Source: Arthrobacter sp. Edens01
GTDB lineage: Bacteria > Actinomycetota > Actinomycetes > Actinomycetales > Micrococcaceae
Direction: 5' to 3'
DNA length: 64,000 bases
NCBI RefSeq assembly: GCF_001307035.1
Contig: NZ_LKIU01000005.1
Span: forward strand, 1,570,946-1,634,945
Of the stretch, positions 9,584-18,305 are shown one piece after another. The notes under the pieces were generated by a model. That model made no database searches, was not told where the DNA came from, and saw only the letters and a program-made list of their open reading frames with translations. The stretch's first letter is position 1, and each line of letters opens with the position of its first letter. The position numbers and the translations under genes were made by a program.

Positions 9584-9642
9584 AACCGGCCGCGGACGTT
9601 GTGGCCAGCATGAGCACTACAGGAACTAACAGTGAGGCGGCT

Positions 9643-10077
9643 ATGAACAGCAAGGACACCGGCACGCAGGTTCCGGTCCAGAAGTCCGACGACGAGTGGC
9701 GCCGCGAACTGACCCCGGCTGAGTACCAGGTACTCCGCCAGGCGGGCACGGAGCGCCCCTACACCGGGGAATACTGGGACACCAAGACCGAAGGCGTCTA
9801 CGCCTGCCGGGCATGCGGAGCTGAACTGTTCACCAGCAGTGAGAAGTTCGATTCGCACTGCGGATGGCCGTCCTTCTTCGCGCCCCTGGCCGAAGGCAAG
9901 GTCCGCTACCTGCACGACCGCAGCATGGGAATGGACCGGATCGAAGTCCGCTGCGCCAACTGCGACTCCCACATGGGGCACCTCTTTGAAGGTGAGGGCT
10001 TCGACACCCCCACCGACCAGCGCTACTGCATCAACTCGGTTTCAATAAAGCTGGTCCCCAAGACCGACGGGAACTGA
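9643..10077 (+). CDS. msrB: Peptide-methionine (R)-S-oxide reductase MsrB
   Basis: This 144-residue enzyme reduces the R epimer of methionine sulfoxide in oxidised proteins. Two CxxC pairs (CRAC and CANC) bind the structural zinc, and the catalytic cysteine lies in RYCINS near the C-terminus. GWPSF is the substrate-site motif. The ATG at 9643 is chosen because GTGAGG precedes it at good spacing; GTG 9601 and ATG 9610 are upstream alternatives. It lies just ahead of the EncFtn-like gene, so an oxidative-stress theme is plausible for this stretch. Confidence 0.93.
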   Translation: MNSKDTGTQVPVQKSDDEWRRELTPAEYQVLRQAGTERPYTGEYWDTKTEGVYACRACGAELFTSSEKFDSHCGWPSFFAPLAEGKVRYLHDRSMGMDRIEVRCANCDSHMGHLFEGEGFDTPTDQRYCINSVSIKLVPKTDGN

Positions 10078-10119
10078 GCCCCCGCAGGGCATCTGGCCAC
10101 CGGCCATTGTGCCCCCCGG

Positions 10120-10199
10120 AAGCCCGCCGTACGCTCGAATAACGGTCAAACACGTTATCGGACAGACGTATGGCGGGCTTTTTGCGTGCCGCTGTCCGA
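10120..10199 (+). promoter_or_regulatory. Structured leader with mutually exclusive terminator and competing helix
   Basis: Bases 10120-10133 pair with 10167-10180 to give a 14-bp stem with one G-U pair, followed by TTTTT (10179-10183): an intrinsic terminator. Its loop contains a second hairpin, ATAACG (10139-10144) with CGTTAT (10153-10158). A competing 8-bp helix pairs 10158-10165 (TCGGACAG) with 10192-10199 (CTGTCCGA), and cannot coexist with the terminator stem without a pseudoknot. The EncFtn-like start codon is at 10217, only 33 bases after the T run. It may be just the msrB terminator, or an attenuator or riboswitch for the downstream genes. I do not recognise a known riboswitch class. 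Confidence 0.6.
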
Positions 10200-10216: not shown

Positions 10217-10540
10217 ATGGGAACAGACCAATACCACGAACCACCCTCCGAACTTTCCGCCGAAACACGCACTTTCGCCCGGATGTGCGCCAGCCTGAGC
10301 GAAGAGGCTGAAGCGATCGGCTGGTACGTGCAGCGCATCTCCGTGGAGCCCGACGCCGATTCCCGGGCCATCATGGAGGACTCCCTCGGCGAGGAGTTCA
10401 AGCATTTTTCAATGGAGCTTGAATTCCTGCTCCGGAAGACCCCCGAATGGCGGGAAATGGCCCGCGGGATTCTCTTTACCGACGGGGACATTGTCGCCCA
10501 CGGTGAGGCCTCCGAGGCTGCAGCAACCCAGGACGAATAG
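10217..10540 (+). CDS. Encapsulated-ferritin-like (EncFtn family) ferroxidase without targeting tail
   Basis: This 107-residue protein matches the EncFtn family, which forms an annular ferroxidase inside encapsulin shells. The first helix reads EEAEAIGWYVQR and the second EEFKHFSMELEF. Glu29, Glu30, Glu32, Trp36, Tyr37, Glu60 and His63 fall in the same spacing as Glu31, Glu32, Glu34, Trp38, Tyr39, Glu62 and His65 of the Rhodospirillum rubrum protein (numbering from memory). The C-terminus (GEASEAAATQDE) lacks the LTVGSL-type encapsulin targeting peptide, and no encapsulin gene is nearby. AGGGAG precedes ATG 10217 at ideal spacing. A V/A-ATPase operon begins 38 bases downstream. Iron oxidation is inferred from residues; a role with the ATPase is speculative. 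Confidence 0.8.
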   Translation: MGTDQYHEPPSELSAETRTFARMCASLSEEAEAIGWYVQRISVEPDADSRAIMEDSLGEEFKHFSMELEFLLRKTPEWREMARGILFTDGDIVAHGEASEAAATQDE

Positions 10541-10578
10541 CAGCTGTAGCTTCCACCACGCCGATACCCGGGAGGTGC

Positions 10579-11058
10579 ATGAGTTTGGCACGGCCTACCA
10601 TTCTGGACCGGTTCCGGCCCGTGGGTGCTCCGGGTCCCTCCGGCCCTGCGGGCGTTCCGTCTGCTGACCATGAGGGCACGGACGCGGAACTGCTTCCTGT
10701 CTTTGCCGCCCTCAAACCCGATGTCGACGCAGCCCGGCAACAGACAGAAGACGCAGCCGGACAGGCACGCCGCCAGCTGGCCGAGGCACGGCGGCAGGCC
10801 GACGCTGAGGTATCCCAGGCACGGCTGGACTCCGGAGCCGTCCGCGCCAAAGCCGCCGAAGAAGTCACCCAGCAGGCAGCAGCCCGGGAAAAGGAGCTGC
10901 TGACACAGGCCCAAAACCGGGCAGAACAGATCCGCGGCGCCGCCCGGGGCCGGATCCCCCGGCTGGCCGCGGAAATCGCCGGTTCCATCGTTTCCGAATA
11001 CCTGGACGGGCCGGGCAGCCACGCAGGAAACCCCGAACATCGGACGGAGAATCTGTGA
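10579..11058 (+). CDS. V/A-type ATPase peripheral stalk subunit (G/H-like)
   Basis: This 159-residue protein is almost all heptad-like helix from about residue 40 to 135, rich in Ala, Glu, Gln and Arg (RRQLAEARRQADAEVSQAR). That is the pattern of V/A-ATPase subunit G/H, which pairs with subunit E to form the peripheral stalk. A Pro/Gly-rich N-terminal 35 residues is unusual. GGGAGG precedes the ATG. It opens the ATPase operon, and its stop overlaps the next start in GTGA. Sequence alone gives weak identity; position as the first ATPase gene decides the call. Confidence 0.72.
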   Translation: MSLARPTILDRFRPVGAPGPSGPAGVPSADHEGTDAELLPVFAALKPDVDAARQQTEDAAGQARRQLAEARRQADAEVSQARLDSGAVRAKAAEEVTQQAAAREKELLTQAQNRAEQIRGAARGRIPRLAAEIAGSIVSEYLDGPGSHAGNPEHRTENL

Positions 11059-12015
11059 GGTCCGACTGGGTGGCAGCAACTGTGCGCGCCAAGGCCATGG
11101 CGCGCAGGCGTGCCGGGGCCGGTCTGTGCCGTGAAGCCGCTGCCCTTACCTCACTTCCGCAGGCACTGGAGCTCCTGGAGCAGACGGCCTACGCATCCGA
11201 GCTTGCCGGAAGCAGGAACCTGGCGGAAGCACAGCACGCCACCCGGCGCAGCGTTCTGTGGCAGCTGCGGGTCCTGGCCGGGTGGCTGCCCGTTGCCGGA
11301 GCACGGATGGTCCGGGCAGCGGGCGCCGCGTTTGAACTCGCAAACATCTCAGTCCTTGCCCGCAGGCTGCAGGAGGCTGCAGACGCCGGTGCGGAAGGAT
11401 CCCTGCACCGCAGTGTTCCGCTGCCGGAGTACTTTGAACTCGGCGGGCTCGCCACAGCCTGGCCCCGCCTCTCGCAGGCAGGCAGCAGCACTGAACTCAC
11501 CGATCTGCTGCGCACCAGCCCCTGGGGAGACCCCGGGCCTGCCCAGGACTTTGCCGACACGCTGACAGTGGTCTGGATCCGCCGGCTCGCTGCGGCCGCC
11601 CCGCAGACACGCAGCTGGATGGTGGCCGGAGCTGTTCTGATCGCAGCGCGCAGGGTGCTGCTGGCTCCGGGACCCGGACGCCACGGCGCCCAGGACACCG
11701 GAAACCGGCTGCATATGCTGCTTCAGCCGCTGCTGGGCGGCACCTGGGCGGAGGCGGACGACGTCGCGTCCTTCAGGGCAGCACTGCCGGCCGCTGCCGC
11801 GCCGGTACTGGAGGGCGTCGAGGATCCCTCCGGTCTCTGGCGTGCCGAAGCGTCACTGCGGGCACGGGTTGAAGAAGACGGGTTCCGGCTGCTGCGCTCG
11901 GGCCTGCCGGGTCCGGATGTGGCGGTTGGAGCAGCAGCTGTGCTGGCCGTGGATGCCTGGCGGGTCCGCGCGGCCCTGGCTGCTGCAGCTTCCGGCGGCG
12001 GAAGCGAGGTACTGG

Positions 12016-12029
<14 letters not shown>
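11055..12029 (+). CDS. V/A-type ATPase subunit C (d-type central cap)
   Basis: This 324-residue, all-alpha, Ala/Leu/Arg-rich protein occupies the subunit C slot. Family C subunits are funnel-shaped helical proteins that join the membrane ring to the central stalk. Features consistent with that are the helical repeats, a VPLPEYFELGGLAT loop and the absence of membrane spans. The GTG start at 11055 overlaps the previous stop by four bases. Sequence similarity is diffuse, so the call leans on gene order between G/H and I. Confidence 0.75.
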
Positions 12030-14004
<1,975 letters not shown>

Positions 14005-14008
<4 letters not shown>

Positions 14009-14529
14009 GCAGCCTTCCCCGCAGCGCCGGACCCGCCCTGGAACCCATTCGGGAGGCAATCCGGGCGGACGCCGCAGCGCAGTCCGGGCGGATCCTGGAC
14101 ACAGCCGAACGCCAGGCGGCGGAGATCCGTCAGCGTGGACGGAGCGAGGCGGAGCAGATCCGCAGCCGGGCCGAAGCTGACGGCCGGGAGGCCGCCCGTG
14201 CCGAAGCGCAGCTGCGCTCCGCCCGTGCACGTAGGGCTGCCGGCGGCACCGTCCTGGCCGCTGAGGAAGAACTCCGCGGGGAACTGCGCAGGGAGGTCCT
14301 TGCCCAGGCAGCCGCCCTCAGGTCCGGTCCGCGCTACCCGGCACTCCTGGACGCGCTCCGCGACCAGGCCCGCGAGCTCCTTGGCCCGGACGCGCACGTG
14401 GTTGAGGCGCCGGCGGGCGGGGTCACGGCAACCCTGGGTTCGCGCAGTGTGGACCTTTCACTTCCGGCGCTCGCCGACGCAGCCCTGGAACGCCATGCCG
14501 GGGAGGTGCGCAGCCTGTGGCAGGAATAG
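14005..14529 (+). CDS. V/A-type ATPase subunit E (peripheral stalk)
   Basis: This 174-residue protein has a long N-terminal coiled coil (about 20-100, AERQAAEIRQRGRSEAEQIRSR) and a small C-terminal globular part that ends ALERHAGEVRSLWQE. This is the layout of subunit E, which pairs with G/H and anchors the catalytic head. The ATG at 14005 overlaps the F stop; its own stop is overlapped by the A-subunit GTG. Confidence 0.85.
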
Positions 14530-16292
14530 AGGCAAACCAGACGCCCCCGCAGACGCAGCAGGGCGGTCCTGCTGGACGCATTCGGCGGGTCAGCGGCCCG
14601 CTGGTGGAAGTCACCGGCCTCCCGGACGTGTCCATGCTGGAACTGGTAGCGCTGGGACCTGAACGCATTTCGGCGGAGACGATTGCCGTCAACGGATCTG
14701 AAGCAACCCTCCAGGCCTATGAGTACACCGGGGGGCTCAAGGCCGGGGATACGGCGGAAGGTACGGGTCACCAGCTCTCTGCCCTGCTGGGACCGCATTT
14801 GCTGGGGCAGGTCTTCGACGGACTGCTCCGGCCTCTCTCCTCGGCCCCCATGTGGCTCAGCGCTGACCGGGAGGACTCCGCAGAGGACCGCCTGGTCCTT
14901 GACCGGCAGTGGAACTTTGAGCCCCAGGCGCCGGTGGGAAAGGCCGTGGGGCCGGGGCAGGTCCTGGGTGTTGTCCCCGATGCGGGCAGCGTCCCTTTCC
15001 TGGTAACGGTTCCGCCGGGCGTCGCCGGTGAACTCACGTGGCTGGGCAGCGGGCTGCTGCGGCCGCTGGAGAGAGCCGCCGTGGTGGGCGGAACGGAAGT
15101 CACCCTGGCCCAGCAATGGCCGGTGCACCGGCCCCGGCCCGTCGCCTCCCGGCTCTCGGATGCGGTACCCATGCATACGGGCCAGCGGGTGCTGGATTTG
15201 ATGTTCCCGCTGCCCCGGGGTGCGGCGGCGGCCGTGCCGGGCGGGTTTGGTACGGGCAAGACACTGCTGCTGCAGCAGATTGCCAAATGGTCCGACGCCG
15301 ATGTGATCGTTTACGTGGGCTGCGGCGAGCGCGGCAACGAGATGGCTGACGTCCTGGACGGGCTGAGCGGCCTGGAGGATCCGCGGACCGGCGGCGCGCT
15401 GCTGGACCGCACCGTAATCATCGCCAACACCTCCAACATGCCCATGATGGCGCGTGAAGCGAGCATCAACACCGGAGTCACGGTGGCGGAGTTCTTCCGA
15501 GACATGGGCTACCACGCCGTCGTGATCGCCGATTCAACCTCCCGCTGGGCCGAGGCCCTGAGGGAGTTCGCGAACCGCAACGGCGACCTGCCAGCGGAAG
15601 AAGGCTATCCCGCGTCGCTCGCCTCTGAACTCGCCGCGCTCTACGAGCGTGCCTCGCTTGCCGTCACTCTGGGCGGTTCAACGTCCTCGGTAACCGTCAT
15701 TGGCGCCGTCTCCCCTCCGGGAGGGGACATGAGCGAACCGGTGACCACGGGAACCCAGCGGTTCGTGCGTTCGCTGTGGCAGCTTGACCGGGACCTGGCC
15801 TACTCCCGGCATTACCCGGCAGTGAGCTGGCGGGGGTCCTTCTCCCGGGACGCCGATGCACTGGGCCGGTGGCACGCAGCCAACGGCGACCCGGAATGGG
15901 CCACCCGCCGTGCCCGGGCCGGGCTGGTGCTGGCCGAAGCAGACCGTCTCACAGCCCTGGCGGAAATCATTGGCTCTGCATCCCTGCCAGCCCACGAACA
16001 GGTGGTTCTCCTTGGCGGCCGGCTCCTGCGAGACGGCGTCCTGGTCCAGAACGCCCTGAGCGCCAATGACGGCTACTCCTCCGCCGCCAAGGGATCGGCG
16101 CTGCTCCAGGCAGTGCTGGACACCATCGACACCTGCCAGGACCTGGTGGCCCACGGGGTTTCCGCCGCCGCCGTGGATTCGTTCGACTTTTCTCCGCTGC
16201 TGCGCCTGCGCGAGGCGGCCGGACCGTCCGACGCCGCTGGTGTTGCCGAGCGGGCCGCCGCCTTCCTGGCCGAACTGAAGGAGCTGCGATGA
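14517..16292 (+). CDS. ntpA: V/A-type ATPase catalytic subunit A
   Basis: This 591-residue subunit carries the nucleotide site of the rotary ATPase. The N-terminal beta barrel spans about 20-90, followed by the A-specific insert (about 95-195). The P-loop GGFGTGKTLLLQQ is near residue 241, the catalytic Glu is in CGERGNEM near 268, and ADSTSRWAEALREF and EEGYPASLASELAALYERA follow. All catalytic features are intact. The GTG start at 14517 overlaps the E gene by 13 bases. It is the best-conserved marker that this is a V/A-type rather than F-type enzyme. Whether it makes or uses ATP cannot be read from sequence. Confidence 0.96.
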   Translation: MAGIEANQTPPQTQQGGPAGRIRRVSGPLVEVTGLPDVSMLELVALGPERISAETIAVNGSEATLQAYEYTGGLKAGDTAEGTGHQLSALLGPHLLGQVFDGLLRPLSSAPMWLSADREDSAEDRLVLDRQWNFEPQAPVGKAVGPGQVLGVVPDAGSVPFLVTVPPGVAGELTWLGSGLLRPLERAAVVGGTEVTLAQQWPVHRPRPVASRLSDAVPMHTGQRVLDLMFPLPRGAAAAVPGGFGTGKTLLLQQIAKWSDADVIVYVGCGERGNEMADVLDGLSGLEDPRTGGALLDRTVIIANTSNMPMMAREASINTGVTVAEFFRDMGYHAVVIADSTSRWAEALREFANRNGDLPAEEGYPASLASELAALYERASLAVTLGGSTSSVTVIGAVSPPGGDMSEPVTTGTQRFVRSLWQLDRDLAYSRHYPAVSWRGSFSRDADALGRWHAANGDPEWATRRARAGLVLAEADRLTALAEIIGSASLPAHEQVVLLGGRLLRDGVLVQNALSANDGYSSAAKGSALLQAVLDTIDTCQDLVAHGVSAAAVDSFDFSPLLRLREAAGPSDAAGVAERAAAFLAELKELR

Positions 16293-17692
16293 CCTCCCCC
16301 AACCGGAACCTGGTTTCCTACCGGGACGTGCGCGAGCTCCGCGGTCCGCTGATGGTGGTGGGAGAGACCGATGGCGTGGGTTGGGACGAGTTTGCCAGCG
16401 TGGATGTTGAGGGCGGGACCGAACGCCACGCCCTGGTGCTGGAGGTTGACGGCGGGCAGGCCGTGCTGCAGGTCCTTGAGGGTACCGAGGGAATGCGGCT
16501 GGGAGGCATCTCAGTCAGGTTCCAGGGCCGGCCGCTGCACATTCCGGTGGGCTCCGGCTGGCTGGGCAGGGTCTGCAACGGACGCGGAGAACCGCTGGAC
16601 GGCGGGCCGCCGGTGACCTCGGATACCGTGGAGCCGGTGAGCGGGTGGCCGCTGAACCCCGTCTACCGCATTCCCCCTAAAGAAGCGGTGATCACCGGCA
16701 TTTCCGCCATTGATGCGCTCACCACACTGGTGCGGGGACAAAAGCTGCCCGTCTTTTCGGTAGCCGGCCTGCCCCATCTGACGCTGGCAACCCAGATCGC
16801 CGCGCAGTCACGGACCGGAGGACGGAACTTCCGTGTGGTCTTCGCGGCCATGGGAATGACCCACGCCGACATCGCCTATATCCGTGACCGGCTGGAAGAA
16901 CGTTCGGCCGCCGGTGAACTGGTGCTGCTGCTCAACGCCGCAGATGATCCGGTGATTGAACGCATCCTGACCCCGCGCATCGCACTGACCATCGCTGAGC
17001 ACCTCGCCTATGAGGAAGGCAGCGACGTGCTGGTGGTGATGAGCGATATGACCAGCTACGCCGAAGCCGTCCGCGAGGTCTCCGCTGCACGCAAGGAGAT
17101 TCCGGCCCGGCGCGGGTATCCGGGTTACCTCTACAGCGACCTGGCCACCCTGTACGAACGCTGCGGCCGGGTACAGGGGCGGGAAGGCTCCGTCACGATC
17201 GTGCCGGTGCTGACCATGCCGTCAGGAGACATGACCCATCCCGTGCCGGACCTGACGGGTTACATCACCGAGGGGCAGATAGTGCTCTCGCCGGAGATCG
17301 ATGCGCGGGGCATTTACCCGCCCGTAGACGTCCTGTCCTCCCTGTCCCGGCTCATGCGCAGCGGTGCCGGAAAGGGACGGACCCGGGAAGACCACCTCGA
17401 TGTCGCAGCGCAGGTGCTGGCTGCCATGGCCCGGGCGCGGCAGGCCTCCGAGCTCGCTGAACTCGTTGGCGATGCCGCGCTGGGCGAGGCAGACCGCGCC
17501 TACATCCGGTTCCGGTCCGTGGTGGAGGAGAAACTGCTGAACCAGAGTGTGGATGAATACCGGTCCCTTGAACAGTCCCTCGGCCTGGCCTGGGAAGCAC
17601 TGGGTGTGCTGCCGCGGCGTGAACTGAGCATGCTTTCACCCGAACTGCTGGACAGGTACCTGCCCGGCCCGATCGGCGGGGCACGGCTGTGA
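16289..17692 (+). CDS. ntpB: V/A-type ATPase regulatory subunit B
   Basis: This 467-residue subunit alternates with A in the head hexamer. It starts with a beta barrel (VSYRDVRELRGPLMVV), then shows the non-catalytic nucleotide-binding domain, with no Walker A lysine motif (GLPHLTLATQIAAQ instead). SDMTSYAEAVREVSAARKEIPARRGYPGYLYSDLATLYE-type B signatures and TMPSGDMTHPVPDLTGYITEGQ-type switch regions are visible. It overlaps subunit A by ATGA. Its stop overlaps a GTG that opens a 10-codon mini-frame before subunit D. Confidence 0.95.
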   Translation: MTSPNRNLVSYRDVRELRGPLMVVGETDGVGWDEFASVDVEGGTERHALVLEVDGGQAVLQVLEGTEGMRLGGISVRFQGRPLHIPVGSGWLGRVCNGRGEPLDGGPPVTSDTVEPVSGWPLNPVYRIPPKEAVITGISAIDALTTLVRGQKLPVFSVAGLPHLTLATQIAAQSRTGGRNFRVVFAAMGMTHADIAYIRDRLEERSAAGELVLLLNAADDPVIERILTPRIALTIAEHLAYEEGSDVLVVMSDMTSYAEAVREVSAARKEIPARRGYPGYLYSDLATLYERCGRVQGREGSVTIVPVLTMPSGDMTHPVPDLTGYITEGQIVLSPEIDARGIYPPVDVLSSLSRLMRSGAGKGRTREDHLDVAAQVLAAMARARQASELAELVGDAALGEADRAYIRFRSVVEEKLLNQSVDEYRSLEQSLGLAWEALGVLPRRELSMLSPELLDRYLPGPIGGARL

Positions 17693-17721
17693 GGGCCGTT
17701 CCGGCGAAGGGACTGCTGTGA
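17689..17721 (+). other. Ten-codon frame bridging subunits B and D
   Basis: A GTG overlapping the B stop opens a frame encoding VRAVPAKGLL and stops at TGA 17719-17721, which overlaps the GTG of subunit D. The peptide resembles the conserved N-terminus of D subunits (VRxVPP-type), which the annotated D lacks. It may be a coupling leader or the detached start of D; a base error joining the two would also fit. Confidence 0.35.
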
Positions 17722-18305
17722 GCGGCTCCGGCCGGGCCGCCCGGGCGGAGACGGAACGCCGGCTCGAAACGGCCCGGCGGGGTGCCGAACTGCTGGACCG
17801 CAAACAGCAGATCCTTCGCATCGCCATCAGCAACCGGGCAGAGCAGGCAGAGGAAAGCCGCCGCCGGTTCGAAGCGGCAGCGGCCCGGGCTGCGCCCTGG
17901 CTGGGCCGGTCCCTGGCATTGGACGGTCTGGGACGCATCCATGAAGCTGTTCCGGACTCCTTCGCGGAAGCGGAGATCCGCTGGGGCGGTGCCATGGGCA
18001 TCGCCTATCCCGAAGGTGCCTCCGTGAAGCTGCCGGAGCAGATACCTTCCTCGGGCTCCTCCGCCCTGCTGTACGCTGCCGCAGCGCACCGCGAGGCGCT
18101 CGCCGCCGCCGTCGAGCATGCAGCGGATGCACGGGCCCTGCTGCTGGTCAGCCGGGAACTCGCAGCGACGCGGACCCGGCAGCGCGCCGTCGAACACCGC
18201 TGGATCCCCAGGCTGGAGGCAGAGCTGGACCGCATCCTGCGCAGCCTGGCCGAACAGGAACTGGAGGAGAGCCTCCGCTTGCGCTGGGCCGCCGGAGCCG
18301 TCTAG
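17718..18305 (+). CDS. ntpD: V/A-type ATPase subunit D (central rotor)
   Basis: This 195-residue protein is the long coiled-coil rotor shaft. The conserved N-terminal helix reads ETERRLETARRGAELLDRKQQIL, and the C-terminal helix reads RQRAVEHRWIPRLEAELDRI. The GTG at 17718 follows AAGGGA at good spacing. The usual first residues of D (VRxVPPGRAG) are partly absent and appear instead in a mini-frame just upstream. It is the last ATPase gene and overlaps by three bases at its 3' end the convergent GNAT gene. Confidence 0.9.
   Translation: MSGSGRAARAETERRLETARRGAELLDRKQQILRIAISNRAEQAEESRRRFEAAAARAAPWLGRSLALDGLGRIHEAVPDSFAEAEIRWGGAMGIAYPEGASVKLPEQIPSSGSSALLYAAAAHREALAAAVEHAADARALLLVSRELAATRTRQRAVEHRWIPRLEAELDRILRSLAEQELEESLRLRWAAGAV

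Follow-up and report, generated by a model that had tools for sequence, protein, structure and literature searches.

An EncFtn-type gene without a targeting tail precedes the V/A-ATPase operon in Arthrobacter sp. Edens01 and most of its genus relatives

The closest described systems to the gene considered here are the encapsulated EncFtn proteins of R. rubrum (Rru_A0973) and H. ochraceum, and a class of tail-less EncFtn relatives published as "Non-EncFtn" (He et al. 2016, PMC5012862) and called "s-FLP" in a 2024 review, with Protein Data Bank (PDB) entry 3k6c as the example (PMC11202242). Without its shell, R. rubrum EncFtn is a slow yet active ferroxidase that yields precipitates at higher iron, and the substitution E62A removes its activity (PMC5012862). 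Section 5 of PMC11202242 leaves open whether s-FLPs act inside a shell. The gene described here lies in a window of 64,000 nucleotides, the whole stretch of DNA analyzed, from Arthrobacter sp. Edens01 (GCF_001307035.1, NZ_LKIU01000005.1, 1,570,946 to 1,634,945); all coordinates are positions in this window. By its sequence, the 107-residue product belongs to the known tail-less s-FLP/Non-EncFtn class. We consider it probable that it is a free cytosolic ferroxidase of the EncFtn type whose gene has become, in one genus, the first gene of a V/A-ATPase transcript. The initial annotation of this DNA had taken a targeting tail to be a general feature of known EncFtn proteins, an assumption contradicted by the tail-less relatives in both papers. 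The idea that a free EncFtn is undescribed is rejected in view of the Non-EncFtn and s-FLP proteins.

10217..10540, + strand: gene for a tail-less EncFtn-like protein of 107 aa with predicted ferroxidase activity (PF22277, PDB matches, structural model and fold match, dN/dS)

The product matches the Pfam EncFtn-like family PF22277 at 75.1 bits (cut-off 27), and its best matches among solved structures include R. rubrum EncFtn (5da5, 3.6e-15) and N. europaea NE0167 (3k6c, 7.9e-13). Residues E29, E30, E32, W36, Y37, E60, and H63 align with R. rubrum E31, E32, E34, W38, Y39, E62, and H65, bearing out the ligand spacing proposed in the initial annotation, and all seven are invariant across 18 genus genomes. 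PMC5012862 names E31, E32, E34, Y39, E62, and H65 of R. rubrum as ferroxidase or entry-site residues; W38 is added from the initial annotation. The protein has both the ferroxidase set of PF22277 (E32, E62, H65, and Y39 in R. rubrum numbering) and the entry-site set (E31, E34, and W38). The iron residues are retained nearly throughout an alignment of 132 protein rows, in which some genomes are duplicated and three broken rows are excluded. E29, E30, Y37, E60, and H63 are constant in this alignment; position 32 is E in 125 rows, with five Q and two D as exceptions, and position 36 is W in 131 rows and R in one.

The AlphaFold model of the protein (pLDDT 87.6) places helices at residues 15-43, 47-74, 76-86, and 92-105, giving the two long antiparallel helices plus short ones of the EncFtn fold, and its top PDB matches are EncFtn chains. 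The protein resembles the EncFtn of R. rubrum and H. ochraceum in core identity (34-40%), in fold, and in its ferroxidase ligands. It differs from these encapsulated proteins in having no tail and no shell gene that could be found, and in scoring 79.1 bits against TIGR04535, the model for encapsulin-associated EncFtn, where the cut-off is 125. Like NE0167, the eighth fold match of the model, it is a short, tail-less EncFtn core (95-residue chain in 3k6c versus 107 residues here), and it shows the features by which PMC11202242 defines an s-FLP: an EncFtn core that ends in a short C-terminus, in which no targeting peptide is apparent. By analogy with the R. rubrum enzyme, the same ferroxidase chemistry is expected.

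Codon alignments gave a median dN/dS of 0.062 for the EncFtn gene (143 usable of 153 pairs), the lowest of five genes compared (msrB 0.10, atpB 0.097, atpA 0.15, and atpX 0.23), with all values being rough as synonymous differences are high. By this measure EncFtn is clearly under strong purifying selection and kept for function; the low ratio argues for a function of its own, but not for a link to the ATPase. A profile search found two PF00210 proteins encoded in the genome, which we read as one classical ferritin and one Dps, and thus iron storage need not rely on EncFtn.

The C-terminus of the protein, GEASEAAATQDE, holds no encapsulin-targeting peptide; tailed relatives end in SLGIGSLK-like forms. 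Searches with PF04454 found no encapsulin in the genome of the window (3.64 Mb, completeness rating 100%), nor in any of the 17 genomes of this genus that belong to a family-wide sample of 245. The absence of a tail and of a neighboring encapsulin, both noted in the initial annotation, thus hold, the latter across the whole genome. A survey covered 80 named EncFtn loci, comprising 37 tailed genes, 39 tail-less genes, and four left unjudged as their frames are broken or shifted (L095, L130, and L143) or the gene is cut by a contig end (L102); L106 and L111 have variant tails missed by the search pattern and were assigned as tailed by eye. An encapsulin gene adjoins 36 of the 37 tailed genes, the exception being L106, whose genome has one elsewhere, and none was found near the 39 tail-less genes, of which some lie on short contigs. 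The genome-wide PF04454 search covered 50 of the 80 loci in 48 genomes, leaving out L092; many of these genomes are metagenome bins, and completeness figures are absent. It found an encapsulin in 16/16 genomes with a tailed copy and none in 28/33 with a tail-less copy. Of the five that remain, four hold a tailed copy as well and the fifth just a fragment at a contig edge; the genomes of L095 and L130, with broken tail-less genes, were excluded from this tally, and both are without a match. In the family sample, EncFtn occurs in 40 genomes and encapsulin in 36. Outside the genus, 24 genomes have EncFtn, and in 22 of them a copy lies no more than 1.5 kb from an encapsulin; the five copies there that are not near an encapsulin are all tail-less. 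Tail and shell occur together. With this survey, Arthrobacter citreus and its relatives offer a natural system for studying shell-free EncFtn chemistry. In three genomes of one other genus of the family (G098, L052/L063; G028, L050/L062; G115, L053/L064), a tailed EncFtn that adjoins an encapsulin coexists with a separate tail-less one.

It could be argued that the protein is loaded into a shell after all, through a C-terminal binding stretch that is not recognized as such or into a shell family that escaped detection. The literature cited above leaves room for this in s-FLPs generally, and our search for family-2 shells with PF19307 matched zero control genomes. We nevertheless regard shell loading as very improbable, given that PF04454 was not found in the Edens01 genome, in the genus members of the family sample, or in the great majority of the searched genomes with a tail-less copy.

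The gene differs from described s-FLPs in its setting, as it lies immediately in front of a V/A-ATPase operon, an arrangement not mentioned in the passages of PMC5012862 and PMC11202242 drawn on here. The operon starts at 10579, 38 bases beyond the EncFtn stop codon, as the initial annotation had it, and contains the following genes.

10579..11058, + strand: putative V/A-ATPase peripheral stalk (G/H-type) subunit, here called atpX (weak matches to F-type subunit b)
11055..12029, + strand: V/A-ATPase subunit C (PF01992, 22.8 bits, short of the cut-off, 29)
12049..13332, + strand: V/A-ATPase subunit I, 427 aa when read from the probable ATG, a start chosen by us (PF01496, 73 bits)
13329..13781, + strand: V/A-ATPase subunit K, c-ring (PF00137, 59.6 bits)
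13778..14008, + strand: V/A-ATPase subunit F, 76 aa (PF01990, 21.9 bits, below the cut-off of 23.5)
14005..14529, + strand: V/A-ATPase subunit E (PF01991, 21.5 bits, below the cut-off of 24.2)
14517..16292, + strand: V/A-ATPase subunit A (NF003220, 607 bits, cut-off 470)
16289..17692, + strand: V/A-ATPase subunit B (NF003235, 603 bits, cut-off 349)
17718..18305, + strand: V/A-ATPase subunit D (PF01813, 89.8 bits, cut-off 25.7)

The order from 10579 to 18305 is X, C, I, K, F, E, A, B, D, with several overlaps of a few bases. Subunits A, B, D, I, and K pass the Pfam cut-offs, and C, E, and F miss them; the catalytic A and B subunits, the rotor subunit D, and the membrane subunits I and c together identify a V/A-type ATPase. 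The atpX product has no Pfam match, and its F-type b-subunit matches are weak; the gene also heads seven ATPase operons of other genera, with 41-53% identity. Those seven genomes share the order X-I-K-E-A-B-D (C and F were not tracked), but unlike the operon described here, theirs are not preceded by EncFtn or by a match to the promoter-like motif described below.

The position of EncFtn ahead of atpX is a property of the genus. The genus group of Edens01 includes Arthrobacter citreus, koreensis, luteolus, gandavensis, gallicola, pullicola, and zhaoxinii, and our set comprised 29 genomes, each of a different species. EncFtn was found in 26 of them (all except G058, G587, and G596), and in 24 of these 26 atpX lies directly behind it at a gap of 4-143 bases, a distance that ends at the tblastn alignment start, which may fall a codon or two into atpX. 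Arthrobacter citreus DSM 20133 (L072) and A. koreensis DSM 16760 (L065) are among the strains with this gene order. In G593 (L095), the EncFtn frame is shifted, by true decay or by sequencing error. Outside the genus the picture is different: none of 28 tail-less loci has ATPase genes in its flanks, which extend up to 10 kb and are shortened in some by contig ends. Only one further genome of the family sample, G052, has EncFtn and the ATPase above cut-off; the two genes lie on separate contigs there, and the EncFtn has a tail and adjoins an encapsulin. In a phylum sample of 296 genomes, in which contigs are often short and many EncFtn-family matches weak (44/55 genomes above cut-off), 31 genomes have both an EncFtn-family match and subunit D, and the two share a contig only in the genome of the window. 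The linkage is therefore real but confined to one genus as far as searched. Of what the initial annotation had proposed, the linkage to the ATPase stands within the genus but not beyond it, and the suggested tabulation of homologue neighbors separates tailed genes with an encapsulin from tail-less ones without but yields ATPase neighbors in the genus only. We found no paper on the combination in the open-access literature on EncFtn or ferritin-like proteins with V-type ATPase, ATP synthase, Arthrobacter, or Micrococcaceae, and the genus-wide gene partnership seems to be new.

The region upstream of EncFtn contains four features.

9613..10077, + strand: msrB, peptide-methionine (R)-S-oxide reductase, the upstream gene (PF01641, 169 bits; TIGR00357, 172 bits)
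10107..10135, + strand: promoter-like element TTGTGC-N17-TACGCT ahead of EncFtn (genus-conserved motif)
10119..10181, + strand: long hairpin running into a T run and overlapping the promoter-like element, probably the msrB terminator (-36.2 kcal/mol, z -5.2)
10140..10157, + strand: inverted repeat TAACG-N8-CGTTA near the likely transcription start, an operator candidate only (single match in the window)

A motif of the form [AG]TTGTnn-N17/18-TAnnnTCGA precedes EncFtn in 26/26 genus genomes that have the gene. A scan of 17 genus loci, L031-L047 (533,568 bases, both strands counted), gave 17 matches; as the motif was derived from the very sequences scanned, these counts show conservation and are not an independent test. 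In G058, which has msrB and the ATPase, the motif is retained ahead of atpX though EncFtn is missing. The EncFtn-atpX spacers have little in common across the genus beyond a ribosome-binding site, and in G590 atpX begins 4 bases past the end of EncFtn, a spacer too short to contain a separate promoter or ribosome site. Taken together, the spacing, the promoter-like motif, and the arrangements in G058 and G590 suggest that EncFtn and the ATPase genes are likely carried on one transcript and that the expression coupling proposed in the initial annotation is likely as well; one transcript would mean that both are made together.

In the sequence of events that we favor, an ancestor of this Arthrobacter genus would have acquired the EncFtn gene at a site downstream of a promoter and upstream of the V/A-ATPase genes, and EncFtn would now be the first gene of a single transcript with them. 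Its product, predicted by homology to form a decameric ring, would bind Fe(II) between subunit pairs and oxidize it with oxygen in the absence of an encapsulin shell, and the Fe(III) might go to the cell's own ferritin or to other acceptors instead of a shell. Ring and ATPase would be produced at the same time, plausibly under oxidative or metal stress, with no contact or mutual dependence required.

Besides the uninformative family-2 shell search, several observations weigh against this reading. The residues at the proposed Fe(III) exit site of the encapsulated R. rubrum protein are substituted throughout the genus (H57 to D and E64 to K); the K is also present in tailed relatives, which mostly carry D or N at the other position. 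The single transcript is proposed from sequence, and a scan with the strict sigma-70 consensus gave no promoter site. EncFtn is present in G100 and G194, in which ATPase subunit D was not found, and G058 has the converse arrangement. With each partner alone in some species, functional coupling is a possibility rather than a finding, and losses on both sides argue against a mutual need; given these three genomes, neither needs the other. Finally, msrB and the genes preceding it also hold their positions in the genus, so that conserved order can be plain inheritance.

These last points lead to the view that the ferroxidase gene by chance arrived, or remained, in front of the ATPase genes in a single ancestor and has been kept there by descent, any shared transcription being functionally meaningless. 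Linkage in a single genus, the occurrence of each partner alone, and the retained order of other upstream genes all fit this, and we hold it about as probable as its negation. It accounts less readily for the fact that EncFtn stays beside atpX while a flavin reductase gene (PF01613) intrudes between msrB and EncFtn in 13/20 genus genomes, for a gap that shrinks to 4 bases in G590, or for the low dN/dS of EncFtn, which speaks for its own function and not for the link. The loci with the flavin reductase are L033, L035-L039, L041-L044, L069, L070, and L095; the enzyme may be part of the same iron/redox theme, since reduced flavin can free ferric iron.

At the other extreme, the ferroxidase and the ATPase would meet the same stress and their co-expression would have been selected. 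The rationale would be that Fe(II) oxidation and hydrolysis, which come in the wake of oxidative or acid stress, yield protons, and that the ATPase exports ions using ATP. The redox-stress neighbors msrB and flavin reductase, a Usp match below cut-off among the neighbors, and the promoter-like motif present in 26/26 genus genomes with EncFtn agree with such a module. Against it, the ATPase operons of the seven other family genomes have neither EncFtn nor the motif in front, and the genus has no conserved operator. We consider selected co-expression unlikely. A closer relationship, in which the shell-less ring cooperates with the V/A-ATPase, for example by tying iron oxidation to ion pumping or by docking to the enzyme or its membrane, appears highly improbable. 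To our knowledge, a ferritin-ATPase partnership of this kind has not been described for any ferritin. Relative to these alternatives, the free ferroxidase at the head of the ATPase transcript remains our preferred reading. The arrangement is a moderately interesting genomic setting, in which a functional partnership has a low but real chance, and the linkage offers a ready promoter and operon for probing shared stress control.

The remaining upstream features are less regular. The 10119..10181 hairpin is a feature of the subgroup to which Edens01 belongs, its arms being present in 7/17 genus loci compared (L031, L032, L034, L040, L045, L046, and G058); it is absent from the output of a terminator scan that allowed loops of 3-8 only. 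The promoter-like motif of EncFtn has its -10 box inside the 5' arm of this hairpin, and msrB read-through might disturb or regulate EncFtn transcription. For the exact inverted repeat at 10140..10157, 0.21 matches were expected with at most one mismatch, and 21/100 shuffles also had one; a conserved operator after the promoter was dropped as a candidate because the repeat is not consistently kept in genus relatives. No known RNA element reached Rfam gathering scores in the whole window. Within the ATPase, the c-subunit carries the membrane glutamate, and we saw no glutamine of the kind that we take to mark sodium-binding rings; its absence would suggest proton rather than sodium coupling. At 76 aa, subunit F looks short against what we assume to be the usual size of its family, as does subunit I at 427 aa from its likely start.

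Tail-less EncFtn genes also occur in Gemmatimonadota, Verrucomicrobiota, Pseudomonadota, and Bacteroidota. A single origin of the tail-less state was rejected, as the EncFtn tree needs seven changes of tail label, at least four of them forced by well-supported branches; the genus rows and Tersicoccus form one supported, wholly tail-less group. The tree has 98 rows and 97 columns, few for that number of rows, after removal of duplicates, one cut row, and broken rows, and the tail labels of L015 (N run interrupting the tail region) and of the R. rubrum row were set by hand. A common neighbor of tail-less EncFtn outside the genus was likewise sought and dropped, there being no general one among the gene clusters found in at least three of the 28 loci. 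These clusters comprise the neighborhood of three related Verrucomicrobiota genomes (L133, L136, and L138), a long membrane-protein gene in L079, L133, and L138 that we interpret as encoding subunit I of an oxidase, and reading frames opposite EncFtn or those Verrucomicrobiota and membrane-protein genes, on the antisense strand. In L133, L136, and L138, a gene for a thioredoxin-reductase-like flavoprotein lies ahead of the tail-less EncFtn. L133 and L138 have a FixO-like gene upstream of EncFtn (28.3 bits over a 90-residue piece, cut-off 29.6) and, after it on the opposite strand, a gene for a GAF-domain protein that resembles a free-methionine sulfoxide reductase. These redox neighbors in Verrucomicrobiota are reminiscent of the msrB neighbor in Arthrobacter.

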